Below, piece after piece: positions 118-45,658 of a stretch of 64,000 bases of DNA (positions are counted from its first letter, which is position 1; every line of letters begins with the position of its first letter). The position numbers and the translations under genes were made by a program. This DNA comes from a virus: positions 43,190 through 107,189 of IMG/VR virus record IMGVR_UViG_3300017593_000150. The stretch is one strand, 5' to 3'. Below the pieces are notes generated by a model. The model made no database searches. It was not told the origin of the DNA and was given only the letters and a program-made list of their open reading frames with translations.

Positions 118-1091
118 TATTCGTAATCCCTTATTGCTATTGAAACGGAGTCTTCTCCATAAGTACTTACAAAAACCAAGTAAGGGTCGCCCCCAACGTA
201 AATAGTAGACTCAGACGGTACATTACCATAAAAGTATGAATAGTAAACATATTTCAACTCACCGAGTAGGTCAATCTCTGGGCTCCCGACATAAATAGGA
301 AATAAAACGTGCCCTTGAGACCGGGTCGAATACGATTGGCAATAGAAGTAAGTAACCAACCACCAACAAGAATTAGTATGGCTTAGAAATTCACAGTTAT
401 TATAACTATCTACACAATTAGTTACAAAGCGGCGAAACCACTCAGTATTTCCGCAATTTCGAAGCCAGGAACCACAGCAACCGAAAAAGGCGTCATAACC
501 TTCACCACTCCCCAGATTCCGGCGATACGGGATTGCAAGCTGACGATCACGCCAACAAACGCTAGTACAGCCAAATCTAAGATAGGGGTCGAAGGTTAAA
601 GAACCAAGAACTACTAATGGTAAAGGGTAATCACTCCAGTACGAATTAATCAACCCCACGTAAGCTGATAAATATTTAGAACCAATTCTAAACAAAAGAA
701 ATGCAAAATCCTTATCCCCAATAAACCAATACGCCATCGACGTCCCATCATCAACAGCGCTTAAGATAGGATACCTTACAAACTGGCAGCAACAACAGTC
801 TGGAGTTCCAAAACCCCCCGGCTGACTATCGAAATCCTCCGACGTGTTTATATCTGTACAAGCTGTAAACTGAAAGCCGCACAAAGTGCTACTGCGCCGG
901 AAAGATCTAACACCAATGTAAATGTCTTTATTTCCAGCCTCTCCTGTACTATGATAAAAGTAGTAAGCACTCCCCATTTGAGTTCCTGAGTGAACTTGTG
1001 TCCATCCGAGAGAGCCAACAAAGAAAGTCCTAATTCGAGCAAATAAATCCGACAGCGAAGATACAGTTCCAGACGTTTTTCTAAAAGCCAT
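117..1091 (-). CDS. Cysteine-rich tail structural protein (probable distal tail or fibre component)
   Basis: A 324-residue protein encoded directly after the tape measure gene, with TAATG overlaps at both ends. It has no signal peptide and no clear membrane segment. It is rich in Tyr, Phe, Trp and Gly and has 15 Cys, including a run of four (residues ~100-103), which is odd for a cytoplasmic phage protein. The N-terminal 'F-GSLGW' segment recurs in the next gene. Position suggests a distal tail, tip or receptor-binding protein. I do not recognise a named family, so the role rests on synteny only. Confidence 0.6.
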   Translation of the reverse strand: MAFRKTSGTVSSLSDLFARIRTFFVGSLGWTQVHSGTQMGSAYYFYHSTGEAGNKDIYIGVRSFRRSSTLCGFQFTACTDINTSEDFDSQPGGFGTPDCCCCQFVRYPILSAVDDGTSMAYWFIGDKDFAFLLFRIGSKYLSAYVGLINSYWSDYPLPLVVLGSLTFDPYLRFGCTSVCWRDRQLAIPYRRNLGSGEGYDAFFGCCGSWLRNCGNTEWFRRFVTNCVDSYNNCEFLSHTNSCWWLVTYFYCQSYSTRSQGHVLFPIYVGSPEIDLLGELKYVYYSYFYGNVPSESTIYVGGDPYLVFVSTYGEDSVSIAIRDYE

Positions 1092-4000
1092 TAGCTAGTC
1101 CTCCTCGCGATTCTCTCACCTACATTGTTCGCAACAACCCTGCCATAAGTGGGAGAGCTATAATACTTATTAAGCTCCTTCTCATCGAAAATAGTCACAA
1201 CCGTTACCTTCGGTTCCTGCGTTTGTTGTTGCATCGGCGTAACCAAGCCTCCCGCTTGGTAATGAAAAGGTGTTATCGTCGGAGGTACAACACCTTTACG
1301 TAGCGCGTCAAAGAACGAAACTCCTATTTTTTCTACCACAGGCCTTGGAACAACATATTCTCCTGGTTCTAGTAAAGCGGGGACGCTATCTCCACGTCCT
1401 TGCCCAGGTACCGGGCCGCCGGCCTGCCTCCTTAAAGGAACCAAACCCCCACGTCTCATCATAGGAACTCGAATTCCCATCGCCTGCAGCGCCATCATAG
1501 CTAGTTTAAATTCTAACAACTGTAGCATTGCCTGAGCAAGACCTGCCGTAAAGCTTCTCAAAATTTCCTGCCAGTTCATCTGAAATCGCTTTCCGTATAC
1601 TATAGAATCAATTATTGCCCTGTTCAACTCATCAAACGCGCTCGCAGCGGTCCTCGCAACAGCCTCTTGAGTCATTTGTCCGAGGGCGCCAAAGAACCCG
1701 CCCATTTCCTCGATCTTCGCCCCAATCTCAGCATAGTTCTTCAAGATTCCTTGCATTGCACTCTCGCCAATAGTCCTCAAGCCATTAGCAAAAGCTTCAA
1801 CTTCATCCTTATTGCGCGACCAAGCGCGTGTTTGTTCGGCCAGCTTAGCGTCCACGAACTTCGTAAAAGTATCAACTCGTCTACGAGCCAACTCAGTTAA
1901 CTCTGTGTAACCTGTAATAGTCCTTGTTATGTCCTCCAGTGCTTGTTTCTGCGATTCACTCAGTACCACACCCGCTCGTCGGTACTGTTGAATCAGATCT
2001 TGTACAGCAATGTTAGCGAGCTCGGACACATTCTCATGAAGTTGCTGAGTGGAAAATACCAAAGAGGAACTCAACTCCAAATTCTTACGGCGGCTTTCTC
2101 GCAAACGTTCCTCAGCATCAGTCAATGTGTTTAACTGGGAAACCAGTATTGAAACGATCCTAGCATAATCTTGAGTCTTCGCGATCATGTCAGCAGTTTG
2201 CACTTTCCCTTTAGCTAAAGCCTGAACTTGCGCGTTTAAATGAGGGAGTACGCTACTAAGGGCGGTACGTACTTGCTCTTCCAAACTCGTGATTTTACTC
2301 AACCCCTCACTATAAGCCGAAGAAGAACTCTTAGCTTCATACATCGCCGAAGCGCTGTCTAACACGCTTTGTATAACAGGAGCGAGGTTAGCATCAAGCT
2401 CACGGACTCTGTCAACCAACCCCCTAAATCCAAAGATAGCGTTCAGGAGAGCGGGTTTGAGGTAATCATTCGCTGAAATGAAATCCTTAGTCTTCCCTTG
2501 TAAGCTCTCAAATACATTAGCTAAGCTTGACCCCCATTGGGGGACATCAACTCTGGTCAGCTCGAGTAACTTCTCAACTAGAGAGGTAACTTCTTGAGCG
2601 GTCTCTTTTGAAACATTGTTGTAATCAACTTGATGTGCGCTTAAAAGGGCGAGATAAGAAGCCAGTTCACTCACAGTAACCGTAGAGGAATCAAAGGCGA
2701 GGGCCGAAATCCCTGTCTGCTTTGCTAGGTCACGAGAACGATTAACCAAATCAGCGATCAGATTCGAGTAATTCCCAAAAGTAGTATAAACAGGGTGAAT
2801 TACTTTCTCGAGTTCTTTAATCCGCCTCGCACTTTGGATCGTCATAGCCGCATACTCACGCTGTTGAGATGTAGCACGAGACAGAGCTTCTAAGAGGGTT
2901 TCCTTAATAGCCCTACTTAACAAGTCGGTACGACCTTGTAATTGCACCAGAGCCTGTCTAACGGCTGTAGTAGTTGAAATAGCCCCTTTCTCGTAATCAT
3001 CAAAGGCTTTGAGAGAAAGTCCTGCTCTGCTATACTGCTCGATACTTTGTTGTAAAGCCTCGCTAAGATACTGTTCTGCTTGGGCTCTCTTTTCTCTTGT
3101 AGTCAACCCCTGTAACGTAAGGGCGTTTAACCGAGAATGGAGGTTAAACTCAGACTTCCAAAGGTCAAGTAGAAGTTTCCGAAGCTTCAGAGTTTCCGTT
3201 GTTACCTTATTCTGCGCCTTCAAAGTAGCGAGTCGTGCTTTTATACGAGCCGATAAAGTTACATGAACTTGAGACTCACTCTCATAAGACTTTATCAAGT
3301 TATCAACGGTTCGAATCTGTGCTTCCAAGTAAGCATTCAGGAGCTGTCTCCCCTTTGCGTCCTTAACAAGAGTGGCAAATTCGTCGTTCTGGGACTTCTG
3401 AATTGTTTCAAGATAGTTCCGGTACACTTTAAGAGAGTCTATATTACCATTGATAGCTTCTTCGTAGCGACGAGCACCTACTTCGGAGATCTTCGCTAAA
3501 GCGAGCTGTACACGGGCGGCAGTTTCGGCCGAGACTGTTACATCTTTAGAATACACATTCGCGAACTGACCCAGTCCCTCAGTTGTATCGGAAATCGATT
3601 TATGTAAGTAAGTCAAAATTGCTTGGTGCCTTTGTAATTCGTCATTCACAGCACGTTGGGCAGCGGAGACTTTGAAGGAAGTCTCGATTAATTTTTCATC
3701 AATTTTGACCTTCCCTTTGGTCCTCTCCATTACCTTAGTTAGTATACCAGCTTGCTTCTCATAAGACTTAGCTTCTGCTACCAACGCGGCCCGTAGTGAA
3801 GGGCTAGCTTTAGAGGCCATATCACGAAGTATACCTGCTAACGAGTTGTACGCTTCTGCGGTTGTCTTAATCCCACTTAAGTTTCCCTGTGTAATCTGAT
3901 TTAAGCCTTGCCAAATCCGTGAAATAGCTTGCCCAGTTTTGAGAGTAACTACTTGTCCAGTCGAAACGTCGCCAATAGCTTTAGTGTACTTTGAGTACAA

Positions 4001-7000
4001 ACTTACCAACGTTTTAGTTTCCTTAATCTGGGCTCCTGTAATTTCAAACTGCTTCTTCAAATTCTCTGCAAGAGCGGAACGCGCCTTCGAAAGCTCCTGA
4101 ACCGCTTCGGTACTTCTCCTATGTAAAGCCTCTGCATCTTCTAACTGCTTACCCTCAGTCGTCCTACCTTTCTCAATCTCATCTTGAACTTCGAGGAACT
4201 CTTGGTAGGCATCTCGATACTCCTGAATAGCGTTAACAACTCGCTCCAACGACTTAGCAGACGAAAGGTTCAGTCCCAGTTCCTCTTGTCGTCTCTTCAT
4301 TCCTTCAGCAAGTTCCTTTCGCAACCGCGCAGTACGATCGATGTTAGTCTGTAGTACCTTGTTCAGCCCAATTATAGCTCGAGCATTATCTGCAGACCGT
4401 TCTCCAAACTTGATCAAAGTCTCGCCAGCACTGTCAAGTTTCTTGTTCAAGGAGTCAACAGACTTACCCCAAATACCGAACCACTTCCCCACATTAAAGA
4501 CGGACTTCCCGAGTAAATAGAAAGGTCCTGTTAAGCGGAGAAGAACGCCCCTGTACTTAATAATCAATCCCAGTGCATACGAAATAACACCTGCAGTCCC
4601 AGCGATTCCCGTCGCAAACAGCTTAACGGGGCCAGTAACAATCTGTACAATGATTTTTCCTAACCAACCCAAAACTTTCCCTAGTGCAGAAACCGCGGCC
4701 CGAAAAGTTTCGGACTCCCCAAAAGTTTCCTTAAAAGCCGGGATAAGCGCTTCTTTGAAGGCTTTATACACCGCGGGAATGACGATCAAAATAATCCCAA
4801 AAATCTTGGCAAAGCCTTTGAATATGTTAATGAGTTTTAACACGGCACCTTTAACTTTTGTAACGACACCTAAGAAAGTGTACCATACTTTAGACAAACC
4901 CCCGGCCGCCCCAGTAAACGTAATTATGGTATTAGCCCACTCCCGTTGAGCTCCGGCGACGTCATGAGTAATTAAGTACAAATCTCGAACCTGTTTAGCG
5001 TGCTTCTGTACCATAGGAGTTACCTTCTTCGCCAGCACCAACCCTTCGGCCATAAAAGTCGCTTGCATCAACTTACTAGCAGCCAGAGCTTTCCTAATCA
5101 CACCCCTTTCTGGAACCATAGCAGATGCTAGAGCTGGGCCAAAAATGGCCTTGGGAACTTTAGTCGCCATTAATGTGGAGATCGCAGTTCTTAACTCTAC
5201 AACAAGGCCTTTAACAGCCTTGGCACCGTTTTTGAAGAAGTTTACAAAGGTAGTACCAATGTAAACGCTTAACCTCTTGAGAACTTTGCTTAGTGACGAG
5301 GCAGTAAAACTAGTTTTGACCATACCATCTCTCATCACGAATAGAGGAGCAAGAGCTGTTCTCTGAGTCATCCCAAAGACGTCAAAGGCTGCGTTTAGTG
5401 CTGTTAACGCCTTTTCAACTAAATGTACAGTCTCAATCAATACAAACAACTGCGCTCCGAGTTTTACAAAACGTCCTAGCAAATCAAGTGAGGCGGCACC
5501 AGCGGCCTTCATCGTAGTGATAAAACCTCCAATCCCGGGCTGAGCCATGACCTCGTTAATTCGGGTCAAAATTTTGTAATAAGCATTCAAAATAGGAGTT
5601 ACATAATTTCCAGTTTGGGCCGCGAGAAGTTCTTGAGAAACGCGATAACGTCTCAGAATACCATACCCTGTTTCCATCAACCTATTGTTAACACCCTGTA
5701 AGTAACTCAACTCCTGTATAAGAGCGAGCATCCTCGCTTTTTGTTTGACGGACTTTCCAGTTTCGGTGCCTTCTTTCCGGAGTTGTTCTTCGTAAAACTT
5801 AGTCTTCTCTCTGAGGTGGTCTATGTTAATGCCCAAAATCATGGCTGAATTAGTTAACCCAGCCAACGCACCGTGGACATGTTGCAAGGTCTCGAACACA
5901 TCTTTGCCCAAGAAACTCGAAACGTCTGTCATCAAAGAAATGAATCGCTTCGTCTCCTTTTGGTTCAACTTATACAAAGCCGCAAAATCCAACAGAGCAC
6001 CGGTAACCCGGCGCATCTCTGAAACGTTTTTACCTGCAGAAAGAGCAAGTCTGTCGGACCACTGGAGCCAATCTTTTGCACTCATAGAAGCATCGCCGGT
6101 CAACTCAGCATACCTCCGAACCGCTCGGTTCAAATCAACCTGCGTGCGAATCATCTCAGAACTGACTCTATACGATTCGGAGAAGTGCTCGAGCATGGCT
6201 TCACCAAAGTAAGAGAGCTTCTCACCCAAGAGCTCGAATCCGTGAGCTAGACTAACATTAAACTTGAATATCATAAGGTAGTGAAAGGTGACTTCCCCAA
6301 GTGCCTTGATCAATCTAGGAAGCGCGGCCGTTTGTATGTTAATCTTACCGGTCAACTCTGAGAAACCGCGAGTAACTCTGCGTAATCGGTCGTTGACTCC
6401 AGGTAATGTCTTATCCAAATGGGACATTACCATAGACCACGACCGCGAAAACGAGGACACAGAAGCGAGGGAGTACCCCAACGTAGTTAGTGTAGAGCCT
6501 AACTTCTTAGTCAAGGGAAAGAAACGCAACAGTTTCCCGGAAAGAATGGTCAAACTCCCCATCATCGCCACAAAAGGTTTAGATAACTTCGCGCCTATAG
6601 AAACGGCCTCACCACCTAGGGATTCGTTAATACGAGCCCCGAGCTGCAAGATCTTGTCTCGCACCTTATCCAATACAGTACCTAAAAACGCAAAACTAGC
6701 GGTCAGTCCTATCTTGCCGGCTAACTTAGACTTCACCACACTCCCGATCTGGGCTACACGATCACGTAGGGAATAAGCAAGTCGGAGTAAGCCTTTCCAG
6801 AGGTCGGCTACGACACGAAGTCCAGACACAAACTTAGTAGAGATAACATCCGCGACATCAACGATTATCACTTTAAGCCTGGTAAAAACTTCGGTTAGCT
6901 TAGTAAAGGCGTCTGGAATTCTCAGTCTAACAAACAGACGAGAAAGAGCTTCCCTTACTGGAGTAAGAGAATCGCTCAACTTCAAAAACAAGCGCGTTAC

Positions 7001-7708
7001 CGTAGCAACAGCAGGAGTCAAGAACTCAACTAACCTAGTAGCTGCCCTTACAGCATAAACAGCAATAGAAACGAACGCAGACTTACCAACTTCTGCAACG
7101 TGCGTAAACTGAGAAGCTATCCAAGTAAAAGGTCCCCTGCGAAACTCGGTGAACAACACTCTGAGCGCATCTCGCACAGAATTTAAAGACTGTTTCATTG
7201 CGGCAGTAGCAGGGATTGATCCTTTTGCCCAAGTAATCCAAGCAGAAGTTGTAGTGGAAAGTATATGAACGGTTTGCGTCAAAACGGTACCAAGGAAGCG
7301 ATGCTGTACTGCAAATGAGGTGACTGCTCGAGCAGCGCTTTGGGCTGAGCGCGTATAAAGTACGTACAACTTATTCGCTAAGCTCATCGAGATCTTTTTA
7401 GAGTTAATCGCTGCAGTTACCAACCCAGCTGCAGAGGCAATAGCAATAAACGCAGTCCTTAACGTGAGAACAGAGGAGGCGTACTGTGAAGTGGCCTTCG
7501 AAGCACTTTGGGTGGACTTAACAGAAGCTTGGGTACTCCGGGCGGTATTACGAATCGACTCAACTAATTGTCGTTGACTTTCAGCGAGCTTACGTACAGT
7601 TTCAGAAAGGGTTTGGACAGACTCAGCGGTTTTCGCGACTTGGGTACGGAGTTTTTCTAACTCCTCCTTATTCTCAACACCTATTTCTACTATATACTCT
7701 TCGGCCAT
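1091..7708 (-). CDS. Tail tape measure protein
   Basis: The longest gene in the window (2,205 residues). It lies just after the two-frame tail chaperone and has the usual tape measure composition: long Ala/Leu/Gln/Lys-rich alpha-helical and coiled-coil stretches, several hydrophobic segments in the middle (for example around residues 980-1110) and a Gly/Pro-rich region near the C-terminus. In siphoviruses this protein sets tail length and helps DNA entry. By the usual ~0.15 nm per residue the tail would be about 330 nm. The start at 7708 has only a weak ribosome site (GGTGGG), so it may depend on translation of the upstream chaperone. The stop overlaps the next start as TAATG. Confidence 0.92.
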   Translation of the reverse strand: MAEEYIVEIGVENKEELEKLRTQVAKTAESVQTLSETVRKLAESQRQLVESIRNTARSTQASVKSTQSASKATSQYASSVLTLRTAFIAIASAAGLVTAAINSKKISMSLANKLYVLYTRSAQSAARAVTSFAVQHRFLGTVLTQTVHILSTTTSAWITWAKGSIPATAAMKQSLNSVRDALRVLFTEFRRGPFTWIASQFTHVAEVGKSAFVSIAVYAVRAATRLVEFLTPAVATVTRLFLKLSDSLTPVREALSRLFVRLRIPDAFTKLTEVFTRLKVIIVDVADVISTKFVSGLRVVADLWKGLLRLAYSLRDRVAQIGSVVKSKLAGKIGLTASFAFLGTVLDKVRDKILQLGARINESLGGEAVSIGAKLSKPFVAMMGSLTILSGKLLRFFPLTKKLGSTLTTLGYSLASVSSFSRSWSMVMSHLDKTLPGVNDRLRRVTRGFSELTGKINIQTAALPRLIKALGEVTFHYLMIFKFNVSLAHGFELLGEKLSYFGEAMLEHFSESYRVSSEMIRTQVDLNRAVRRYAELTGDASMSAKDWLQWSDRLALSAGKNVSEMRRVTGALLDFAALYKLNQKETKRFISLMTDVSSFLGKDVFETLQHVHGALAGLTNSAMILGINIDHLREKTKFYEEQLRKEGTETGKSVKQKARMLALIQELSYLQGVNNRLMETGYGILRRYRVSQELLAAQTGNYVTPILNAYYKILTRINEVMAQPGIGGFITTMKAAGAASLDLLGRFVKLGAQLFVLIETVHLVEKALTALNAAFDVFGMTQRTALAPLFVMRDGMVKTSFTASSLSKVLKRLSVYIGTTFVNFFKNGAKAVKGLVVELRTAISTLMATKVPKAIFGPALASAMVPERGVIRKALAASKLMQATFMAEGLVLAKKVTPMVQKHAKQVRDLYLITHDVAGAQREWANTIITFTGAAGGLSKVWYTFLGVVTKVKGAVLKLINIFKGFAKIFGIILIVIPAVYKAFKEALIPAFKETFGESETFRAAVSALGKVLGWLGKIIVQIVTGPVKLFATGIAGTAGVISYALGLIIKYRGVLLRLTGPFYLLGKSVFNVGKWFGIWGKSVDSLNKKLDSAGETLIKFGERSADNARAIIGLNKVLQTNIDRTARLRKELAEGMKRRQEELGLNLSSAKSLERVVNAIQEYRDAYQEFLEVQDEIEKGRTTEGKQLEDAEALHRRSTEAVQELSKARSALAENLKKQFEITGAQIKETKTLVSLYSKYTKAIGDVSTGQVVTLKTGQAISRIWQGLNQITQGNLSGIKTTAEAYNSLAGILRDMASKASPSLRAALVAEAKSYEKQAGILTKVMERTKGKVKIDEKLIETSFKVSAAQRAVNDELQRHQAILTYLHKSISDTTEGLGQFANVYSKDVTVSAETAARVQLALAKISEVGARRYEEAINGNIDSLKVYRNYLETIQKSQNDEFATLVKDAKGRQLLNAYLEAQIRTVDNLIKSYESESQVHVTLSARIKARLATLKAQNKVTTETLKLRKLLLDLWKSEFNLHSRLNALTLQGLTTREKRAQAEQYLSEALQQSIEQYSRAGLSLKAFDDYEKGAISTTTAVRQALVQLQGRTDLLSRAIKETLLEALSRATSQQREYAAMTIQSARRIKELEKVIHPVYTTFGNYSNLIADLVNRSRDLAKQTGISALAFDSSTVTVSELASYLALLSAHQVDYNNVSKETAQEVTSLVEKLLELTRVDVPQWGSSLANVFESLQGKTKDFISANDYLKPALLNAIFGFRGLVDRVRELDANLAPVIQSVLDSASAMYEAKSSSSAYSEGLSKITSLEEQVRTALSSVLPHLNAQVQALAKGKVQTADMIAKTQDYARIVSILVSQLNTLTDAEERLRESRRKNLELSSSLVFSTQQLHENVSELANIAVQDLIQQYRRAGVVLSESQKQALEDITRTITGYTELTELARRRVDTFTKFVDAKLAEQTRAWSRNKDEVEAFANGLRTIGESAMQGILKNYAEIGAKIEEMGGFFGALGQMTQEAVARTAASAFDELNRAIIDSIVYGKRFQMNWQEILRSFTAGLAQAMLQLLEFKLAMMALQAMGIRVPMMRRGGLVPLRRQAGGPVPGQGRGDSVPALLEPGEYVVPRPVVEKIGVSFFDALRKGVVPPTITPFHYQAGGLVTPMQQQTQEPKVTVVTIFDEKELNKYYSSPTYGRVVANNVGERIARRTS

Positions 7709-8428: not shown

Positions 8429-8932
8429 TTAGGAGAAGTCACCGATTAACCTAATTCGGCACAACCTTCCCCTCTCATCCAAGGTAGTGCCATCCCAAGC
8501 AGTATCGGCATCCAGAGCAACGAACGAGTAAGGGAATTCGTGTGGATCGTTCCCAAACTCGATCGAGAGTTCTCCTGCGGACTGAGCTCTCCAAATATCA
8601 ATTTCCACAGTTCCTCCAGCAGGCATCTGGTGAACGAACTTCAGCGACGCTTCAGTAACTTCCATATCTCCGCCGAAATCCATCGTCTTCTCATTTCCCG
8701 AAGTTTGAATGATACCACAACCAATAGCATACCTCAAATTCTCAAGATTCCATTCATGACCAACAACATCTAGTTTAACTGTCTCAGTAACAACCCACTG
8801 TTTGATCAACTTCTCGGGAGAACCCTGTTTAACCTCGAGTTTATCTCGAGTAAATGTTAGAGTTGCTCCAGTCTTAACAGCGCCTATATCAATAGTAGGT
8901 GTTTGGCCGGCGCTTCCAATATAAAGCACACC
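8429..8932 (-). CDS. Major tail tube protein, exon 2
   Basis: This is the main part of the tail tube protein (167 residues, …GVLYIGSAGQTPTIDIGAV…). It has the typical start-of-tube pattern: a Gly-rich strand, 'TFTRDKLEVKQGSP', then Ig-like beta sandwich strands. The piece has no ribosome site or convincing start of its own. The missing N-terminus (MNTPTYNTKRLSFGP) lies at 10122-10166 behind a strong ribosome site, and joining them gives SFGP-GVLYIG, the usual opening of this family. The joined protein would be 182 residues. The gap is a predicted group I intron. Confidence 0.82.
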   Translation of the reverse strand, partial: GVLYIGSAGQTPTIDIGAVKTGATLTFTRDKLEVKQGSPEKLIKQWVVTETVKLDVVGHEWNLENLRYAIGCGIIQTSGNEKTMDFGGDMEVTEASLKFVHQMPAGGTVEIDIWRAQSAGELSIEFGNDPHEFPYSFVALDADTAWDGTTLDERGRLCRIRLIGDFS

Positions 8933-10121
8933 CGCTTTAACCTGTTATTTTTCTTGACCCTTTCGGGCAAGTAGTACAACTACTTCCCTACGTCACCGTA
9001 GGGGTCGGACTGTCGTATACACTAACCAGATCCTGAAAGAGGTTAGTGTCCTCTACGCTCAGTCTCTGCAGCCGCAGTTCGCTATTCAACTCTCTTTTGG
9101 GTCCCCGTCTTCTCTCGGGCGGATTTAATTCATTAAATTTCGTCCAGAAAAACTGATATAGAACTTCCTTCAAATCTTTCTTCCTCCGCCCAAGAGGCAA
9201 AGCTAACGCAATTGTAGCTAACATTCGTTTATCGTCCGGAAGAAACAAATGGACCCTTTCTAAAACACGTTTCGCTTGTCGACCTCTAACTACAACCTCA
9301 CCTTTCTTCCTTGAAGTTCTGATTCTCTGAAGGGCATCTTTAACGTCTTTATCATTAACCATTACGACTAACTCAGGAAAGTACGACAAGTACCGCCGTT
9401 CCTTCGAACCTCCCCAAACGCGTAAAATCATAATCTTCTTAATACACCTCGCAACCTTTTGAGCTAGGTCATCGTCCCACAGAGTCGCGCGAACTGCTTG
9501 CTGGGGGTTGACAACGGTAATCCACTTATAAGAGTGAAACGGAATTAGTGGGTCTCCTATGTACTCGAAGAAATCTAGGGCACAATCTTGATGTAACCTA
9601 AAAATCGGTCCTGTTGGGGTTTGGACAACCGTCCCATACAAGCCCAACTCTTCAAAGCACCTAACTATCTCTTTCACCTCGGGAACCGCCCAACTATTTA
9701 AGCACATAGTCGGGCTATTCTCAATAACAGTACCATCACCACAATAAGCAACGTTCAAAGTAGTAGGCGTCCATCTAAAATCTTTGGGAAGCTTTTTCTT
9801 TTTATCATCATACCAACGATAGTGAAGATTCTTCATAACAGGAGCTTTATATCCAACAACTCTGTAAGAGATAAATTTCTTCCCAAATCCAATACGTACT
9901 TGTTCTCTAATAGAACAGGAAATAACAGGACGAAGAAGGTTACAAACTTGCTCTGCGTACAAACGCTTGGTCGTCCCCAACTCGAACCTATAGTCACCAG
10001 CCTTACAATAAGCAATATGCCCATCACTGAAAATTAATCCATCTAAAATCTCATTTAGCTGAGTGGATACCATTGTGTTTCCCCGTTGATCAGCAGAGGT
10101 TTTACGGGCCCAGTGTCACTT
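8933..10121 (-). mobile_element. Group I intron in the tail tube gene
   Basis: A 1,189-nt insertion separates the two exons of the tail tube gene. The exon 1 end CGGGCCU can pair with GGGCCCG eleven bases inside the intron. This forms a seven-pair P1 helix whose last pair, at the 5' splice site, is the U-G wobble that defines group I introns. The only in-frame 3' junction ending in G is at 8933, giving exon 2 as GGT GTG CTT. The 3' end holds two short hairpins (GTAG…CTAC and CTTGCCC-GAAA-GGG…CAAG). The P3-P8 core was not fully traced and must overlap homing endonuclease codons. Confidence 0.75.
8988..10073 (-). CDS. LAGLIDADG-type homing endonuclease (intron-encoded)
   Basis: A 361-residue protein encoded wholly inside the predicted tail tube intron. 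Near the N-terminus it has LDGLIFSDG, a clear LAGLIDADG variant, and a second weaker copy, LNVAYCGDG, near residue 115, as expected for a one-chain two-motif enzyme. The C-terminal part is Lys/Arg-rich. Such enzymes cut the intronless allele so that repair copies the intron. The ribosome site before the ATG at 10073 is weak (GGGGA), usual for intron ORFs. Its 3' end probably overlaps the ribozyme core. Confidence 0.75.
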   Translation of the reverse strand: MVSTQLNEILDGLIFSDGHIAYCKAGDYRFELGTTKRLYAEQVCNLLRPVISCSIREQVRIGFGKKFISYRVVGYKAPVMKNLHYRWYDDKKKKLPKDFRWTPTTLNVAYCGDGTVIENSPTMCLNSWAVPEVKEIVRCFEELGLYGTVVQTPTGPIFRLHQDCALDFFEYIGDPLIPFHSYKWITVVNPQQAVRATLWDDDLAQKVARCIKKIMILRVWGGSKERRYLSYFPELVVMVNDKDVKDALQRIRTSRKKGEVVVRGRQAKRVLERVHLFLPDDKRMLATIALALPLGRRKKDLKEVLYQFFWTKFNELNPPERRRGPKRELNSELRLQRLSVEDTNLFQDLVSVYDSPTPTVT

Positions 10122-10166
10122 AGGCCCGAAACTCAATCTTTTGGTGTTATAAGTTGGTGTGTTCAT
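10122..10166 (-). CDS. Major tail tube protein, exon 1
   Basis: A strong ribosome site (GAGGAGGTGAG, 8 bases before the ATG at 10166) drives a frame that ends after 16 codons, at TGA. Its first 15 residues, MNTPTYNTKRLSFGP, are the typical beginning of a phage major tail protein. The frame breaks at the predicted 5' splice site after CCT. An otherwise orphan ribosome site with a 16-codon frame is itself evidence for splicing to exon 2 at 8932. Confidence 0.78.
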
Positions 10167-10217
10167 TTACAATTCTCACCTCCTCAAATTAAGTGTGTAC
10201 CTCAACAACCTAACTCA

Positions 10218-10454
10218 CTACAAGTACTTCTCCAGTTCGATCACAGCAGGTTCACTCATCTTCATCGCTTTCGCCATAACTTCATTAACTTTACCACACT
10301 TACGACACAAACACTTTATCAACGAAGCTCCTCTTATAACATTTACGTAAAAGTATAAGTCCTTATACTTGATACGCAAGATGTCTGTACCATCCAGGTA
10401 ACCTAGGACGGCCCCACAACTTGAGCACTTCCAAGCACTAGATTGGTTGCTCAA
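10218..10454 (-). CDS. Small zinc-ribbon protein (Com-like)
   Basis: A ~78-residue protein with CSSCG near the N-terminus and CRKCGK about 45 residues later, a two-knuckle zinc ribbon. It resembles the Com-type small zinc-finger translational regulators of Mu-like phages, but that is only a shape match. The TTG at 10454 is chosen as start because it follows GAGGT and places the frame just inside the end of the preceding gene (16-nt overlap). It lies between the tail terminator and tail tube genes, so it could act on tail gene expression. Confidence 0.5.
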   Translation of the reverse strand: MSNQSSAWKCSSCGAVLGYLDGTDILRIKYKDLYFYVNVIRGASLIKCLCRKCGKVNEVMAKAMKMSEPAVIELEKYL

Positions 10455-11250: not shown

Positions 11251-11828
11251 CGTTCTCTTATCCGTACAACATCAAGTTCCCAATGATGCAATCTACCTCT
11301 TCGATCAAAAGCTTGCTGTGCCTCTACTACAGAAAAAGTCTCGTTCGTTTCTTGGTCAATCAGTACATCGTCAGAGCGAATTTCAACTCCGGGTAAACAC
11401 ACCATTACACTCGAAGAGACTAACGTAACACGACCAAACTCATCCGTTCCTATAGCCCTTCTAGTAGTATAAACCGCGCCGGTGACTTGTCCTATGTCAA
11501 GACCAACTTCTTCGGTGGTATAAATCGAAAGGGAACCATCCTGAGTACACGTAACGTACTCCAGCCCAGGAAACTTATTTGACGTAAGAGACGCGCTAAA
11601 CTTAGTTAAAGTAAGAGTTTCAGTTACAGAGGCCCCGACTAACGTGCACAACACGCTCGGTGTATCTCCTAACCAGGTCAATCGCAACGTAGCTTCAGGA
11701 TGTATTTGCGAAATGTTCAAAGCAGTAGGAACTCCTCTTTTGCAAGATAACTCCACTGTAACACAAGTGGTATACCGACGAACCGTGTAAACACGCTGTC
11801 TGTAATGAAAGCCAACGAGATTGGTCAT
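11247..11828 (-). CDS. Probable head-tail stopper / closure protein
   Basis: A 193-residue beta-rich protein between the glycosyltransferase and the gp10-like gene. Overlaps are ATGA at both ends. The C-terminal part (…VCLPGVEIRSDDVLIDQETNETFSV…) resembles head closure (stopper) proteins, in which a small beta barrel ends with a conserved 'GD.I' turn. I cannot name the family with certainty; the call comes from gene order between connector and neck. Confidence 0.5.
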   Translation of the reverse strand: MTNLVGFHYRQRVYTVRRYTTCVTVELSCKRGVPTALNISQIHPEATLRLTWLGDTPSVLCTLVGASVTETLTLTKFSASLTSNKFPGLEYVTCTQDGSLSIYTTEEVGLDIGQVTGAVYTTRRAIGTDEFGRVTLVSSSVMVCLPGVEIRSDDVLIDQETNETFSVVEAQQAFDRRGRLHHWELDVVRIRER

Positions 11829-13717
11829 CTCACAATATACCTTTTGGTGTACTCTTTCAAAGGTCCGTAAACCTTCTTAATAGCATTCACCATAGGATGT
11901 TGAGGTGGCACAACTTCGAGGGTCCTCTCAATTGCCTCGAGTGCTTTTTGACAATATACTCTCGAAACTTCGTACTGTGCAAGGGCAAAACTCGGATGGA
12001 GAGAAGTTGCTTGAAGGAGGAGTTTGAGCGCTACGTCCAAATTTTCAGGATGCTCTTCATACTCGTTCAACAGATCGAGCGCGAGATTAAAATACGGTAA
12101 GGGGTTTTCCGGTTCCTCCTCTAACTGCATGTTGATCAACTCTCGATAAAAAGAGAGTTTCTCTTTCATGCGTGGGGACAGAAATCCTAGGTGGTAAATC
12201 ACTACATCATTAACTCGTGATACAACACGGTTCTCCTCAGTAGCGCAGCGTTCAAACGTCTCGTGAACCCGATTTGAGTAGTACCAAGTTCGTGGGTTCT
12301 TAACCAAACGAATGGCATCTTGATAGATGACCGTCCCCTCTTGCGGAGTTAAATTGTGCACCTGAAGCTGGACCGCGTCTGTATTCTCAGGTGTTTCCAA
12401 CATCACTGCGTAAATCTGCTTATAGTCAACAATTTCGTCCAGGTCCTGTTGAAGGAGCCAAGTGCCGTTCGCCCTCTGTAAGTACAAATTCCGCGCTTTA
12501 GAGAAGTCTTTATCTAATTTAGTCTCTAACACCTCAGCTCCAAAGCGCTTTGCAAAAGACAGAGATTCATCTTGAGAACCGGTGTCTACCAAAATCACCT
12601 GTTGAGCAAAAGGAAGAGCAGTGCCCAAATACGTGGGGAGGTTTTTCATTTCGTCCTTCATAATCGTTGCAATAGTCAAGGTAGGAGTACGAAGTCTCGC
12701 AATAGAACAATTGTCGGGTAAGTCATTAACCTTCTTGATAATGGGCACATTAACTGGGCGTAGGCCTTCATAAGGAAGCTGTTGCCCGTAGTAAGGATTA
12801 ATCAAAATACGCGGGGCAATCTTTTCAAAGGAAGCAAAAGCCCTAATTTCCCAAGTAACTTGATCTTTCAAATATCGATTATCCGACCAAGTCCGTAGTA
12901 CAGGAAATTGGTACGCGAAAACAAACGGATCAGGATTGTCACACATCCTTTGCAATTGCTCAAGGGTAAAAATATCGGCAAAATCCTCACCCTCTCTCAG
13001 AACAAAAATCAACTTTCCCTGATCAATTTCAGGAACGTCTAAAGGAGTGCAAACAATGACATCCTTGAACAAAGATTTCGCAGTAGAGGGGATGTCCTTC
13101 AACCGGCGATATTGATAGATTAATACTGGCTCCAACGGTTGAGTTCTGAACCTCGCGTCAAGTTTCAGATCACTAAAATCCTCTTCCATATCCAAAGTGT
13201 ACATTGGGAGTACATAGCTAAAACGACCTTGCTTCATCAGCTCATAACATACAAGCTGAACAATTCGCTCGTCTTGAAACACCTTCAGAGCTTTCTCAAA
13301 CAGAGTAATAGCCTCCTCTGTTCTGAACGCGAAACACCAAGGGGCAATCCGAGCTAATGCTCCTCTGTCTTTCCTCTTATAGCTCTGTGGTCCCACACCC
13401 TTAGGAAGTCCAGGAACTACAAAACCAACTTCAGGGGAAGAAAGAACTTTCAAAGCCTCACCAAGGAAGTCTAAATTAGAGAGAGCCGCCTTTGGGTGTA
13501 CAAAAACAAAATACTCCGTTTCGACCTTCTCTAATCCAGCAAGTAACTTCCTACCAAAAGTCTTTCCCCCTTCATAAGTACGACAGTTCAAGACTTTGGT
13601 AAGATCTCGTTGATCCTGTCCAACTACAACTAAAGGAATGCCCTCAATGTGAAAAGGTAGTGTAGTGTTCAAAAACGCGACTACATCTTCCGACGTAAAC
13701 GTTACAGCGGTAATCAT
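11825..13717 (-). CDS. Two-domain glycosyltransferase with TPR-like C-terminus
   Basis: A 630-residue protein. Residues ~340-470 are a family 2 glycosyltransferase domain: 'TIATIMKDEMKNL', then 'VILVDTGSQDES' and the DxD-like 'QQDLDEI'. The first ~200 residues look like a second GT-A fold ('YFVFVHPKAALSN'), perhaps degenerate. The end is helical (PLPYFNLALDLL…, FALAQYEVSRVY…) and TPR-like. It sits among connector genes with a strong ribosome site (GGAAGGAGG), so virion protein glycosylation is possible, though the acceptor is unknown. Confidence 0.75.
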   Translation of the reverse strand: MITAVTFTSEDVVAFLNTTLPFHIEGIPLVVVGQDQRDLTKVLNCRTYEGGKTFGRKLLAGLEKVETEYFVFVHPKAALSNLDFLGEALKVLSSPEVGFVVPGLPKGVGPQSYKRKDRGALARIAPWCFAFRTEEAITLFEKALKVFQDERIVQLVCYELMKQGRFSYVLPMYTLDMEEDFSDLKLDARFRTQPLEPVLIYQYRRLKDIPSTAKSLFKDVIVCTPLDVPEIDQGKLIFVLREGEDFADIFTLEQLQRMCDNPDPFVFAYQFPVLRTWSDNRYLKDQVTWEIRAFASFEKIAPRILINPYYGQQLPYEGLRPVNVPIIKKVNDLPDNCSIARLRTPTLTIATIMKDEMKNLPTYLGTALPFAQQVILVDTGSQDESLSFAKRFGAEVLETKLDKDFSKARNLYLQRANGTWLLQQDLDEIVDYKQIYAVMLETPENTDAVQLQVHNLTPQEGTVIYQDAIRLVKNPRTWYYSNRVHETFERCATEENRVVSRVNDVVIYHLGFLSPRMKEKLSFYRELINMQLEEEPENPLPYFNLALDLLNEYEEHPENLDVALKLLLQATSLHPSFALAQYEVSRVYCQKALEAIERTLEVVPPQHPMVNAIKKVYGPLKEYTKRYIVR

Positions 13718-15061: not shown

Positions 15062-16012
15062 TTACCTGATACCTACAATGCACGAAATTGCTTGAGGATC
15101 TCTGGCTACCAACACCTCATCAGCGAAGATATCAAACTTATCATACTGACTACTTTCCTTAGCCAGCGGTTGAACGGTTAGCGGGGTCAACTCAGAGACG
15201 AATACTTTGCTTGTATCAACTACAAACAGAGTACTCAAATTACCTCCTGTGAGAGAAGTAATTGTAGCACCGCTAGCACTCACCTGCTGAGTATCCGGAA
15301 TCTGGTTGCTAACCAAAATAGGAACCTCGTTATAACTCAAAACCTCAAATCCACCTTTCACCTTCACCATGTTAATGAACCTTTGCTGTGCCTGGAGCAA
15401 TGCCCTAATCCTTCTACGGGTCCTCTTTGAACATACGATCAAACTGGGCATACCACGAATGGCGTCCAAAGCCTGATCCAGCAGTGCCAGAGTTAAATCA
15501 CCACCTGTGTTGTCGGACCCAGCAGGAATAATATTCGAGGAATCGCACAGCTTGTACAGTCCGTCAAACTCCTTAGCGTTGGCGCTGGAGTCTCCCCAAC
15601 AAATAGCATACTCCTCTTTATCTTTGAAATCCTCTGCCTTCGCCTCCATCTCAGCTGTTAGAATATCAACGTACTTAGAACCGATAGCGCGCGCCTTACG
15701 AGTAACCTTCCCTTGTGTTCCGATAGTCTTATAAAGGAACTCGACCTGTTCATAAGTACCGGTTTCTTCATCAAAAGAATCAGTATCAGCATAGAACGCA
15801 GCCTTAGCAGCACCAGGGGTTCTACGATTGATGTAAACCCCTGCACCAGAACCGGGTTTCCTAGGTATATTCTGTCTCAGCGGGTTAAGGTGCTCGACCA
15901 TCTGGGTGATGATCTTATCAACTTCCTTCGGCAGGATATCAGCGATACCTTCATAACCGCCACCAGTATTCTCTGCTAATGCCCTTCGAAGTTCAGATAT
16001 AGGATTCAACAT
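15062..16012 (-). CDS. Major capsid protein (HK97-like)
   Basis: A 316-residue protein right after the protease-scaffold gene, with overlapping TAATG and a perfect ribosome site (AAAGGAGGTGA). It shows HK97-fold features: a helical start, 'VEFLYKTIGTQGKVTRKAR', 'KEEYAICWGD', 'ALDAIRGMPSLIVCSKRTRR' (spine helix then loop) and a C-terminal 'PQAISCIVGIR'. A strong terminator follows. Cleavage of the N-terminal arm by the upstream protease is likely but no site was defined. Confidence 0.88.
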   Translation of the reverse strand: MLNPISELRRALAENTGGGYEGIADILPKEVDKIITQMVEHLNPLRQNIPRKPGSGAGVYINRRTPGAAKAAFYADTDSFDEETGTYEQVEFLYKTIGTQGKVTRKARAIGSKYVDILTAEMEAKAEDFKDKEEYAICWGDSSANAKEFDGLYKLCDSSNIIPAGSDNTGGDLTLALLDQALDAIRGMPSLIVCSKRTRRRIRALLQAQQRFINMVKVKGGFEVLSYNEVPILVSNQIPDTQQVSASGATITSLTGGNLSTLFVVDTSKVFVSELTPLTVQPLAKESSQYDKFDIFADEVLVARDPQAISCIVGIR

Positions 16013-16590
16013 TACTTTTCACCTCCTTTATACTTTTCTGTGAAATCCCACAGCATCCTCATCTTCTCAGAAGGATCTGCGTTTTTGTACTCTTCCGACT
16101 CGAGAAACTGCCGGATTGCATCCTCGGGAGCCTCTTCAGACCTCTCGCCACGAACAACTACAGTTTCCTTCAACTCCTTAACTTCATCAGTAAGAGCCCG
16201 AACACTTTCGAGCACTTCTTGCATCGGCTCCTCCGCATTCTCTTCAAGATCGAGCTCCTCTACACTCTCTTCAATCTCTGCAGACTTTTTTGCAGGGTAG
16301 GGATAAGGATAGGGGTAAGGATATTTTTCCAACTTGTCCAAAATCTTCTTAAGCATCTCCATCGCCTCATCCAACTTCTTCATAACAGCATCTAAATTCG
16401 CGGCCTTAAGAAGTTCGTCCGCCCGCTCAACCAACGCAGAAACACGCTCATCAAGGTCTAGTAACAGTTCAAGCTGACTGGATTCCACTGCCTCAATCAA
16501 CTCCTCAGTTCCTTCCTCTTCTTCAAGAGCTTCCTCTTCCTTCTCCTCAAGCTCCTGCTCCTCTAGCTCTTTCATTTCCTTATCACTCAT
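16012..16590 (-). CDS. Scaffold protein from an internal start
   Basis: Inside the protease gene, AAGGAGGTGACAAA precedes an in-frame ATG at 16590 (MSDKEMKELEEQEL…). The ribosome site is a perfect match to the 16S rRNA tail and lies exactly at the protease-scaffold boundary. The product would be a free 192-residue acidic coiled-coil scaffold, as in lambda C/Nu3. This is inference from signal strength and position. Confidence 0.7.
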   Translation of the reverse strand: MSDKEMKELEEQELEEKEEEALEEEEGTEELIEAVESSQLELLLDLDERVSALVERADELLKAANLDAVMKKLDEAMEMLKKILDKLEKYPYPYPYPYPAKKSAEIEESVEELDLEENAEEPMQEVLESVRALTDEVKELKETVVVRGERSEEAPEDAIRQFLESEEYKNADPSEKMRMLWDFTEKYKGGEK

Positions 16591-17157
16591 TTTGTCACCT
16601 CCTTGTTCTGAATTAACATCCCTTTGTAAGGGGACGAAGTCATTATCGCTCGCACTCCTTTGTACATACCACGATTGAATCTCTGCTTCATCAACAGCAG
16701 GTACGGAAACAACAGATACCTCAAGCAACTTCAAGTTATCAACAACTGACGTGGACCTTCCAGTATTCTCATCCCACTCTTCATGAGAAGCTAAAATCCG
16801 TCCGCGGATCGAGAACTTGTTCAACGTTCCTGATTTGATCTTCTCCTGAATCTCTTGCTCTGTCTTATCAATTACAGCAATTGTAAACAACCCCTTATTA
16901 TCCAACTTCACCTCATGAATGCGGCCAATAGGGCGATTTTGATCATGATTGAACAACACTGTGCTTCTCTTCTTCAGGTCCTCAGCAGCGTTAGACAATG
17001 CCTTCCTAGATATGACAGCATTATCCAAACCTTTATCATAAGTTGTAGCATAACCTGCGATCACCAACTCCCCCGGATTAGCAATCTTCTCGGAAACCTC
17101 AGCTGGAGCGCGAATGAATTCTGGATTTAACTGAAACAAGCCGTTCTCAAACCTCAT
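16012..17157 (-). CDS. Prohead serine protease fused to scaffold
   Basis: A 381-residue protein. Residues ~1-165 are a caudoviral prohead protease (S78-like): 'GYATTYDKG', the catalytic His in 'LFNHD', the Ser in 'NKFSIRG', then 'LLEVSVVSVPA'. The C-terminal part is acidic and coiled-coil, as in scaffolds, with a YPYPYPYPYP stretch near residue 275. The ATG at 17157 is chosen because GGAAGGAGGTG lies just before it; the longer frame start has no such site. A second start inside this gene gives scaffold alone (separate entry). Confidence 0.85.
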   Translation of the reverse strand: MRFENGLFQLNPEFIRAPAEVSEKIANPGELVIAGYATTYDKGLDNAVISRKALSNAAEDLKKRSTVLFNHDQNRPIGRIHEVKLDNKGLFTIAVIDKTEQEIQEKIKSGTLNKFSIRGRILASHEEWDENTGRSTSVVDNLKLLEVSVVSVPAVDEAEIQSWYVQRSASDNDFVPLQRDVNSEQGGDKMSDKEMKELEEQELEEKEEEALEEEEGTEELIEAVESSQLELLLDLDERVSALVERADELLKAANLDAVMKKLDEAMEMLKKILDKLEKYPYPYPYPYPAKKSAEIEESVEELDLEENAEEPMQEVLESVRALTDEVKELKETVVVRGERSEEAPEDAIRQFLESEEYKNADPSEKMRMLWDFTEKYKGGEK

Positions 17158-42535: not shown

Positions 42536-45500
42536 CTACTCTTCAAACAAATGATCACCTCCTTTCCAACAATCCCCAACTTCAATTTCAACCGGGATCA
42601 CTAAATCTGTATTAGCCACAGGGCGCGTGTACAACTCCTGAATTAAACCAACAACTTCATCCAAAACACTCTCATGAACTTCCACCATTATAGCATCATG
42701 AAGTTGGATTATCACTCTCGCATCTAGCCCGCGTTCGTTAAAAATCATTTGGAGCATCCAAAGCGTCTGATTAGTATGATCTGCGACAGTACTATTATGA
42801 ACCAAATAACCTTGGCACACGTAGTAGGGTCGCGGGCCTTGTACGGTTAAATCGTACATCTCTACAACCCGGCCTGTACTCCTAACTTGAGTAACTTCGA
42901 AAAAGGTGGACTTGAAGAAAAGATCGAGTTCGTTTCGTTCCTCGGGACTAAACAGAGACCTAAACCTTGTATACAACTCTCGAGCATGGTCATATGATAA
43001 ACTCTTCTCCTGTATCAGTCTACGAAGTTGAACTTGTTCTGTCTCAGAAAGGCCTCGAGAAGGTAGATGTCGGAAAACCTTAGAAAGGTACAAGTAAGCC
43101 GTTTCAGGAAGCGGAGACCCTCCTTTCAAACCTCTCTTTCTGATCTTAGGAAGCGCGTCTCTCTTTACTAGAACAGGTTTATAAAAAGAAACATTCCCTT
43201 TCACAGTATTAACTTTAGGCAAAAATGAATCTTCTAGCTCCTTCAATTTATTATTCAGGGTATTCACCTCAGGAACTACTAACAGCTCCCCTTTTTGCAA
43301 ATCTCGGACAAACCGTTCTTGAATCCCGTCCTTTGTTAGTACTAACACGCGATGATCGCCGCTTGCGTATAGTGGTGGTCCAAAAGAAGTAGTAATCTCT
43401 ACTTCTTCCTTCCAACGAGGTCCTTGTAGAACGGCAGGAGTGAACTCCTTGCTGTCAAAAACTCTAACTCCGTCACACTCTTCAACCGGTATGTAACCAT
43501 ACTCTGTTAGAACAAGAGAACCCTTACACACGCATTGCGGAAGAAAATTCAGGGCTTGTCTTTCCCACACAGGCATAAACGCACAATCTCGAGGAAAGAT
43601 GCGCGTCCTTCCAAAAACATTTCGAAGTTCTCGCTGCTCCCGAGCGGTTTGTACGGCGTAGTCCAAAAACGTTGGAATCTCAGGATAGGCTTCAAACAAC
43701 GAGTCAACGATTCTTTGTGCCTCTTCTAGTGAAAGCTTGAACTGATCAGCCATGCTACGCGCCCCGCGGCCGTAGCTGATACCATAAACGGCAAACTTTG
43801 CCAGTTTCCGTTCAATATCTCCTTTCTTAACCTTTTTCTTAAATATCCGCTCTGCCGTTTGAATATGAAAATCTTCACCCGAGTTTAACTGGTCGAGCAT
43901 GGTCTTACACCTTGCATACCACGCGAGAGCATACAATTCAGCACTGTTCAAATCTGCCTCTATGAACTTGTACCCCTTAGGTACAGTGAAAATAGATCTA
44001 ACTGCGGATTTAGGAATTGTCTGAATAGGAGGGTCTGCAGCACTTAATCTACCGGTCACAGTACCGGTAACTTTAAAATCTGGGTGTACTCTCCCATCAT
44101 TTTCAACAAACTTCCAAATCCCTCCTTTACCTCCAGAAAGGTAAGTAGAGAGTAACTTTTGACGGGCTCTGAGTTTGAGCAACGAAGTAATTACAGCGGA
44201 CTTCTTGGGATCAGAGCCTACTTTAGACTTCAGCTTCTGTAAGGTTCCCTCATCAGCCGATGCGTTTCCTGTCGGGGACCTCTTCACTATAGGAAACTTC
44301 AAATCAGTATACAACGCCTTAGTCAACTGTTTAAAAGATTTGTAATTGAACTCATAACCCACTGCTTGAAAAAGCTGTTGTTCGTTCTGTTGAATCTCGG
44401 ACACCACACGCTTCGTTAATTCGTCTACTCGTTTCTTATCAACAAGGATCCCTGTTAATTCAACATCGACCAAAGCGAGTTGTACCGGGAACTCAACTTT
44501 CCAGTACAGCTCCTCGTACCCTTTCTCTCGTATTTCCTCAATTTGCTTTAGGGCAATCATCCTTGTCACAATGGCGTCATGAGTTGCGTACTTGAACAAT
44601 ATTTCTTGCGGAATTTCTGCATATGACTTAATCTTATGCTCCTTCTTGAACTTCTCTAACTCTCGGTCGTACTTTGGGTAATCCAAATACAGTGTAATAA
44701 GCGTATTCAAGTCAGCAGGGAGGTTCTCGTTCAACACGTGCTGAGCAATCATGGTATCGAAGTACATGTTAGTTACACAGAACCCGTTCCTCTTCAGGAA
44801 CCGGAGGTCAAACTTGCAATTCTGGGCCACTTTACGGCATCGAGACGCAAGAATACGCTTGATGTAAGGAACAACAATCGGGTCATCCATTGGAATAGTA
44901 TACCCAACCCAATCTTCAAAAGAGAGGGAGAGACAAATGATCGACGATCTAAACGGGTTCGTATCGGTCGTCTCCAAATCGAATGACATCAGTGTGTCTT
45001 CTGGGAGTGACTCTACCAACCTTGTCAACTCCTCAAGTGCTCCAAGGGTATTGATCTGGAAAATCAACGGAGAAGGTTCTGAGTAAGCCCCTTCAACAAT
45101 TCTGGCCAACTTTCTCATATCAGCCTCGAACAGCCATCGAAGCTCGGGCTGTCTCATTACACCCGCCGGATGAATTGTGGGTAACACAGGTCCTACTTCA
45201 GTACGGAGTAGGAACCCCCTAGCGGACAGAATAGAAGTAAGCTCACCTCTAGTTACATACTCAAGAGCTTGTCCACCAAATGTAACGATCAATCTTGGGG
45301 AAATGCGTCGAAGTTCCGTATGAAGTCTGTCATAACAGAAAGTCCTCTTCACTTTAGGAACAGGAGTTAAGACCTCACAAACACAAGCATTAGTAATGTA
45401 TAAATGTTCTCCACGGGTTTCTAAAAACTTATCAAAGGTTGGAGGTCTAGTACCAAGGATAGGAATGAGAAACTTGGCTATCTCTTCTCCTGACTTTCCA

Positions 45501-45658
45501 ACAAACGGCCTTCCTTCAAAGAACTCATTAATACCCGGGCTCTGCCCAACTATACAAATAGGTGCGTGAACACTCCCTTCCGGAGGAACAAACCTAAGGG
45601 AATTCCGATATAGAGGACAGGCACGGCAATACTCAAGAATGTGTGTATGCAACTCCAT
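42536..45658 (-). CDS. UDG-exonuclease-DNA polymerase I fusion with intein
   Basis: A 1,040-residue precursor (793 after splicing). Residues 1-200: family 4-like uracil-DNA glycosylase ('CRACPLY', 'VGQSPGINEFFEGRPFVGKSG', 'IHPAGVMRQ'). Residues ~205-400: 3'-5' exonuclease ('MSFDLETTDT', 'AQNCKFDLRFLK', 'YATHDAIVT'). Then family A polymerase: motif A 'IEADLNSAELYALAWYA', motif B 'KLAKFAVYGISYGRG', motif C 'QLHDAIMVEV'. An intein lies at residues 709-955, between motifs B and C. This replicates phage DNA and can remove uracil. Good agreement with the dUTPase next to it. Confidence 0.92.
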   Translation of the reverse strand: MELHTHILEYCRACPLYRNSLRFVPPEGSVHAPICIVGQSPGINEFFEGRPFVGKSGEEIAKFLIPILGTRPPTFDKFLETRGEHLYITNACVCEVLTPVPKVKRTFCYDRLHTELRRISPRLIVTFGGQALEYVTRGELTSILSARGFLLRTEVGPVLPTIHPAGVMRQPELRWLFEADMRKLARIVEGAYSEPSPLIFQINTLGALEELTRLVESLPEDTLMSFDLETTDTNPFRSSIICLSLSFEDWVGYTIPMDDPIVVPYIKRILASRCRKVAQNCKFDLRFLKRNGFCVTNMYFDTMIAQHVLNENLPADLNTLITLYLDYPKYDRELEKFKKEHKIKSYAEIPQEILFKYATHDAIVTRMIALKQIEEIREKGYEELYWKVEFPVQLALVDVELTGILVDKKRVDELTKRVVSEIQQNEQQLFQAVGYEFNYKSFKQLTKALYTDLKFPIVKRSPTGNASADEGTLQKLKSKVGSDPKKSAVITSLLKLRARQKLLSTYLSGGKGGIWKFVENDGRVHPDFKVTGTVTGRLSAADPPIQTIPKSAVRSIFTVPKGYKFIEADLNSAELYALAWYARCKTMLDQLNSGEDFHIQTAERIFKKKVKKGDIERKLAKFAVYGISYGRGARSMADQFKLSLEEAQRIVDSLFEAYPEIPTFLDYAVQTAREQRELRNVFGRTRIFPRDCAFMPVWERQALNFLPQCVCKGSLVLTEYGYIPVEECDGVRVFDSKEFTPAVLQGPRWKEEVEITTSFGPPLYASGDHRVLVLTKDGIQERFVRDLQKGELLVVPEVNTLNNKLKELEDSFLPKVNTVKGNVSFYKPVLVKRDALPKIRKRGLKGGSPLPETAYLYLSKVFRHLPSRGLSETEQVQLRRLIQEKSLSYDHARELYTRFRSLFSPEERNELDLFFKSTFFEVTQVRSTGRVVEMYDLTVQGPRPYYVCQGYLVHNSTVADHTNQTLWMLQMIFNERGLDARVIIQLHDAIMVEVHESVLDEVVGLIQELYTRPVANTDLVIPVEIEVGDCWKGGDHLFEE
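42794..43534 (-). other. Intein in the polymerase domain
   Basis: A 247-residue in-frame insertion from Cys ('CVCKGSLVLTEYGY') to His-Asn ('YLVHN'), directly before Ser of 'STVADHTNQ'. Flanks join as NFLPQ-STVADH, restoring the conserved NF..Q polymerase helix. It is longer than the other two inteins, with an extra ~100 residues in the middle but no clear LAGLIDADG motif. Confidence 0.9.

Follow-up and report, generated by a model that had tools for sequence, protein, structure and literature searches.

The window analysed here is a stretch of 64,000 nt (positions 43,190 to 107,189 of IMG/VR virus record IMGVR_UViG_3300017593_000150), and on its minus strand the first 15 codons of what appears to be a major tail tube gene are parted from the remainder by 1189 nt that hold a reading frame for a homing endonuclease. 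Judging from the sequence, we put the probability that a group I intron interrupts the gene after codon 15 at roughly 0.93. In window numbering the main features are:

10122..10166, minus strand: exon 1 of the putative tail tube gene, codons 1-15 (MNTPTYNTKRLSFGP), aligned to the intronless relatives L016, L029 and L030
10116..10118, minus strand: UGA within the P1 loop, in the reading frame of exon 1
8933..10121, minus strand: probable group I intron, 1189 nt, last base G
8988..10073, minus strand: homing endonuclease frame, 361 codons, codons 1-185 of which correspond to LAGLIDADG_2 / phrog_11023
8429..8932, minus strand: exon 2, GVLYIG..., 167 codons plus stop, placed by alignment to intronless relatives

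Exon 1 starts with the ATG at 10166, downstream of GGAGGUG, a ribosome-site-like stretch that agrees with the ribosome site of the preliminary description, and closes with GGG CCT, whose last base is 10122. Its frame meets the UGA (10118-10116) two codons into the intron, and in passages of PMC3073962 and PMC3984707 an in-frame stop shortly after the intron start is described as common among group I introns. Exon 2 opens with GGT GTG CTT at 8932 and reaches its stop at 8429. The coordinates, strand and lengths originally given (ATG at 10166, 15 codons to 10122, a gap of 1189 nt from 10121 to 8933, exon 2 from 8932) hold throughout. Exon 2 had also been said to follow 1,189 nt on without a start of its own; the spacing stands, but a GTG at 8929 is usable as a start on paper.

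Joined, the exons make 182 codons (546 nt) that align indel-free to the uninterrupted 182-codon genes, 546 nt each, of three relatives found via capsid and terminase genes and tail-protein alignment. The identity is 69.6% to the gene of L016 (IMG/VR 3300005265_000084) and 64.7% to those of L029 (3300025163_000238) and L030 (3300013103_001742), the latter two being identical to each other, and the junction FGP/GVL is thereby fixed by homology. Exact removal of the insert gives the arrangement of all three, the empty site reading TTCGGGCCTGGTGTG, and this comparison with intronless relatives, which had been proposed as a check, puts the junction exactly at the place claimed. The assertion that only one in-frame 3' junction ends in G does not survive: among 12 scanned in-frame positions ending in G three are stop-free (8942, 8933 and 8927). 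The choice of 8933 itself is upheld by the 182-codon protein, indel-free against L016, L029 and L030, and by a P10 of 5 bp where the other two candidates have 1 and 0; on homology and P10 together it appears to be the best 3' junction.

Could the gene simply be split, with exon 2 translated alone from the GTG at 8929 and the homing endonuclease gene accompanied by a dead ribozyme? The existence of that GTG would allow it, and Rfam scores below threshold (considered further on) point the same way. Yet a protein begun there would be 16 residues shorter at its N-terminus, and 13 of those 16 are the same in the joined protein, L016 and L029; exon 1 has been kept along with its ribosome-site-like stretch; and nothing is missing on paper from the core, P1 or P10. 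We consider a dead ribozyme improbable.

The original naming of the gene as one for the tail tube leans on gene order together with weak profile matches. Major tail protein phrog_885 is matched by exon 2, L016 and L029 with E values of 0.016, 0.0028 and 0.005, and phrog_2175, 'protein with Ig domain', with 5.3e-7, 2.5e-12 and 1.7e-7, respectively; Pfam, NCBIfam and PDB gave no match for the tail protein, and a structure model of the L016 protein has a mean pLDDT of 30.6. In position the gene comes before a phrog_1442 tail assembly chaperone (E 1.3e-5) and then a 2205-aa frame (1091-7708), for which Pfam gave no name and which is taken as the tape measure by length and place. These profiles and the gene order weakly suggest a tail tube protein. 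Two other genes of the window may be mentioned. Among the head-tail genes, the product of 11825-13717 (630 aa) has a glycosyltransferase 2 domain and matches TPR weakly. DNA polymerase I (42536-45658), which has an N-terminal uracil-DNA glycosylase domain, matches Intein_splicing at residues 751-955, a predicted second self-splicing element, at the protein level, in the same phage.

For the insert, a full core (P1, P10 and P3-P9) can be placed in canonical pairs around two large loops:

10112..10116, minus strand: P10 strand, ACACU, adjoining the guide and pairing with GGUGU of exon 2 at 8932-8928 (5 bp)
10105..10111, minus strand: internal guide sequence, that is the P1 3' strand, GGGCCCG, pairing with CGGGCCU at 10128-10122 (7 bp, U.G at the 5' splice site)
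10093..10099, minus strand: P3 5' strand, pairing with 9056-9050 (7 bp)
10081..10084, minus strand: P4 5' strand, GGGG, pairing with 9507-9504 (4 bp)
10068..10076, minus strand: P5 5' strand, pairing with 9519-9511 (9 bp) and holding the endonuclease AUG, 10073-10071
9489..9519, minus strand: P5 3' strand, J5/4 (CAA), P4 3', P6 5' and P6a 5' strands, the same nucleotides being endonuclease codons 185-195
9069..9082, minus strand: P6a 3' and P6 3' strands, 9082-9074 pairing with 9497-9489 (9 bp) and 9072-9069 with 9503-9500 (4 bp)
9060..9066, minus strand: P7 5' strand, pairing with 9012-9007 as GACUG/CAGUC (9064-9060/9012-9008) plus G9066-C9007 around the bulged A9065
9050..9056, minus strand: P3 3' strand
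9019..9049, minus strand: P8 hairpin, 9-bp stem (9049-9041/9027-9019)
9007..9012, minus strand: P7 3' strand
8986..9003, minus strand: P9 hairpin, 7 bp (9003-8997/8992-8986), GUGA loop, holding the endonuclease stop UAG, 8990-8988
8958..8985, minus strand: two more 3' hairpins, P9.1/P9.2-like (8985-8969 and 8967-8958)

The P1 first described, with its U-G pair at the splice site, is exact, and alongside it stand the other marks of group I membership, a terminal G with P10 and a P3-P8 core with a P4-P6 domain. J4/5 (AAAC) and J5/4 (CAA) are A-rich, as expected for group I introns, while a J3/4 of 8 nt is long and counts against such a core. The group I reading had been staked on a foldable P3-P8 core, and it gains in that all core helices could be placed on paper and that P4-P6a scores above all shuffles. 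That combination, P4-P5-P6-P6a, reaches 63.5, a score attained by none of 1000 sequences with the middle shuffled (maximum 48) and none of 1000 fully shuffled (maximum 52); the strands were first spotted by eye and then tested, each shuffle being free to pick its own best arrangement. Of 20000 dinucleotide shuffles made from the first 60 nt of the intron, 37 gave a P1 equally long, and 2 gave such a P10 along with it. The 3' part folds with a z of -3.3 (8930-9070) or -2.7 (8933-9240), three other stretches (-0.12, -1.82 and 0.08) folding hardly or no better than shuffles. Two looser tests are too permissive to be evidence: a yes/no descriptor of P4-P6 was satisfied by 103 of 2000 and 87 of 2000 shuffles, and a letter-free P7/P8/P3 topology is common (15 of 1500 shuffles and 37 of 646 window tiles).

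Some candidates were set aside. P4-P6 within 9220-9066, including an 11-bp hairpin at ~9193-9112, was dropped for a spacing to P7 that did not fit, 9519-9489 being accepted instead, and the same misfit in spacing, together with the lack of an RF00028 match in 8925-9290, led to the rejection of a core confined to the final 290 nt. An R/S motif pattern matched the window once, in the intron, and 18 of 300 shuffled windows matched too; it is discounted, having been written from this very sequence and having failed to match any of 14 further loci, among which were known introns.

The Rfam search that had been advised gave a divided answer. Confined to 8925-9160, RF00028 yields 18 bits (E 0.014) over P7-P8-P9 as drawn, which is below gathering, and the match vanishes on widening, with nothing in 8850-10250. 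Genome-wide RF00028 searches left the intron unreported in its own genome and in three other records carrying the same intron, and cmscan of the whole window at gathering score found no family, group II included. Elsewhere in the genome a 19-bit RF00028 match (G000:40817-41066), recurring in three related records, lies antisense to a frame that is open for 661 codons or more and is probably due to chance; since a probable chance match of such size occurs in the same genome, a score of about 19 bits is no proof alone. Taken by itself the Rfam support is weak. As a yardstick, 11 of the 15 RF00028 matches with E <= 0.1 in T4, Twort, SPO1 and K, taken as listed, intron or otherwise, are below the cut-off, five such matches having 15.8-25.6 bits. 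The gathering score is a detection threshold and not a defining part of a group I intron. The 3' hairpins (8946-9003) also match RF02931, Bacilli-1 RNA, weakly (18.6 bits, under threshold), and that family might contain 3' ends of group I introns.

Phages have some genes in which a stretch is skipped, and on that precedent the insert might be passed over by translational bypass or be a group II-like element. The ends, the guide sequence and P3-P8 all fit group I, 1189 nt would be extreme for a bypass, and the cmscan result speaks against group II; we hold either to be very improbable.

The group I intron, as we take it to be, recurs with its surroundings. It is 100% identical over 10.5 kb in MAG contig L031 (JAGGSE010000232.1, isolate AUK014), and three IMG/VR records have the same arrangement with 100% identity over 3.2 to 5 kb. 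Among the IMG/VR records and the MAG contig no diverged copy was found, nor was an intronless copy in the same phage species; a degenerate joined-site pattern, which is unable to match L029 (its serine codon is TCG), matched only the contig of L016. These copies bear on whether the gene and an unrelated piece of intron were brought together by faulty assembly. Contigs L012 (15872) and L013 (15876) both end inside exon 1, ~20-25 nt before the splice site, which would suit such an artefact; an assembly broken by a mixture of alleles with and without the intron would also fit. Against it are the identical arrangement in the MAG contig and the three records, and P1 and P10, which tie the intron to both exons; faulty joining is given next to no weight. 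As a separate matter of assembly, the 150-kb contig of IMG/VR 3300016457_000282 (L004/L005) has the same region at both ends in opposite orientation, either a terminal inverted repeat or a palindromic misassembly.

Another relative, L015 (IMG/VR 3300033150_002146), seems to carry a different, HNH-bearing intron in the same tail gene. Its gene is split at 15862-17027 by an insert in which a partial RF00028 match lies on each side of the nuclease frame (25.6 and 23.8 bits), but the enzyme is HNH_3 and the position another, exon 2 resuming at codon 28, ~12 codons downstream of the intron site in the window. As assembled, its exon 1 is without ~48 nt, a six-frame translation of the stretch read at this locus lacks SFGPGVLYIGxxGxTP, and by our reading the parts of the tail gene would not share one frame. 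A match of 9 nt, CAAGCGCCT, is a hint that a deletion or an assembly fault lies behind this.

Profile matches confirm that a LAGLIDADG gene lies within the intron, as first noted. Residues 8-157 match LAGLIDADG_2 (E 7.7e-12), the sole such match in the genome record, which has none to HNH_3, and residues 2-185 match positions 3-181 of 185 of the phrog_11023 profile (E 3.5e-20); the two acidic motif residues, D17 and D113, are common to the frame and HVTV-1 gp173. Its layout is interlaced with that of the ribozyme. The start codon is inside P5, codons 1-185 occupy the P5 loop, codons 185-195 core strands, codons 196-330 the P6a loop, and codons 331-361 the stretch from the P6a 3' strand to P9, inside which is the stop. 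By count, 132 nt of the core stretch are coding. Is the P6a loop merely read through? Its 135 codons have an in-frame coding score of 0.119, against at most 0.012 in the five other frames, and are stop-free, with none of 2000 base shuffles matching the score and none of 5000 the openness; the best score being in frame and stops being absent by comparison with shuffles, the loop is coding and not passive read-through. For codons 1-185 the best score is likewise in frame (0.04). Codons 331-361, the core overlap, have no in-frame signal (-0.06, with up to 0.069 in other frames) and may be mere overlap. For the 176-residue C-terminal extension, Pfam, PHROGs, the phage records and the PDB yielded no convincing relative, its best Pfam match, ResT/TelK (E 0.004), being under the cut-off and taken as chance. 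A structure model of the endonuclease has a mean pLDDT of 35.0, and the loci of two endonuclease relatives, L043 and L044, gave no Rfam match at E <= 1.

How might ribozyme and enzyme share one RNA? The transcript would fold into the ribozyme, a guanosine cofactor held in P7 would bring about the cut after U10122, and the freed exon 1 would attack after G8933 to join the exons, in the standard two steps of group I splicing. The endonuclease would cut intronless tail genes at the exon junction, repair then copying the intron in. Ribosomes coming from upstream would be halted by the UGA in the P1 loop. For the endonuclease itself the presumed ribosome site is the G-rich GGGG (10084-10081), 7 nt before its start and identical with the P4 5' strand, and the folded ribozyme should mask the endonuclease start just as a ribosome on the gene should unfold the core. 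With the AUG in P5, GGGG in P4 and the frame running across nearly all of the 3' core, folding and translation would thus be mutually exclusive for each RNA. In T4 td, according to parts of PMC2988022 and PMC3073962, RNA structure masks the I-TevI ribosome site and a mutant without the hairpin was spliced less; by analogy, the core itself may here play the role of that masking structure. That two loop frames, of P5 and P6a, have been fused across the core, with start in P5 and ribosome site in P4, to give a fold-or-translate switch is a tentative proposal to which we give somewhat less than even odds. Were it right, each RNA from this late structural gene would either be spliced, serving the virion tail, or make the enzyme, serving the spread of the intron.

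Introns in a phage tail tube gene have precedent. Group I introns are already on record in orf142, the tail tube gene of Staphylococcus phage Twort, and we read as these the three adjacent RF00028 matches over the cut-off that follow the tail sheath gene (NC_007021, 16606-17506). The two cases are alike in type of intron and gene, but the Twort matches are compact, each end-to-end on the model, whereas the window has one intron with two large loops and a LAGLIDADG gene. The paper on Twort orf142 also has split phage genes mostly in nucleotide and DNA metabolism; the generalization in the preliminary description to that effect agrees with it, and the tail gene that was there called less usual has its forerunner in orf142. 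By blastn the intron matched none of the phage records. Mycobacteriophages offer further virion genes with introns, supported by RT-PCR, in the part of PMC3706429 that deals with the LittleE capsid gene and a BAKA/Optimus tail gene; the LittleE intron is there termed 'most likely a group I' and has a LAGLIDADG-like reading frame. As presented there, those are capsid and minor tail genes, not tail tube, and the LittleE intron has its endonuclease on the opposite strand, whereas in the window the enzyme shares the strand of the tail gene and its frame is woven into the core.

Endonuclease frames that overlap a ribozyme core are familiar as 'core creep'. A table in PMC3073962 gives in five rows overlaps of 0 to 81 nt, among them 20 nt for T4 td and 81 nt for a Synechococcus lividus LAGLIDADG intron, and a portion of PMC3984707 treats such frames as well. 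In those examples, so far as these portions describe them, the frame also supplies core strands, to an extent of at most 81 nt against 132 nt in the window, and the filling of two loops, P5 and P6a, with a crossing of the core between them sets the window apart. A phrog_11023 LAGLIDADG endonuclease is present in one Nitunavirus DNA polymerase intron (PMC11878797); HVTV-1 gp173, of that family, stops at about the point that corresponds to the start of the P5 3' strand in the window, where the frame goes on for 176 residues more. Judged by title, no publication was found on a LAGLIDADG-bearing intron in a phage major tail protein gene, and no report was found of an intron with two of its loops filled by a single endonuclease frame, which is weak evidence of absence. 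An intron-split tail tube gene is, then, already known; an endonuclease frame woven through the core is the unusual part.

The tail tube gene joins a short list of virion genes seemingly dependent on RNA splicing, here in an uncultured phage whose sequence is also in a MAG labelled AUK014. If the intron of L015 is indeed different, its site ~12 codons away would make the start of the tail gene a repeated target. A probable intron can evidently be almost invisible to a standard Rfam search, and the woven layout of this one makes it a good test case for 'core creep' and for the clash between translation and splicing.
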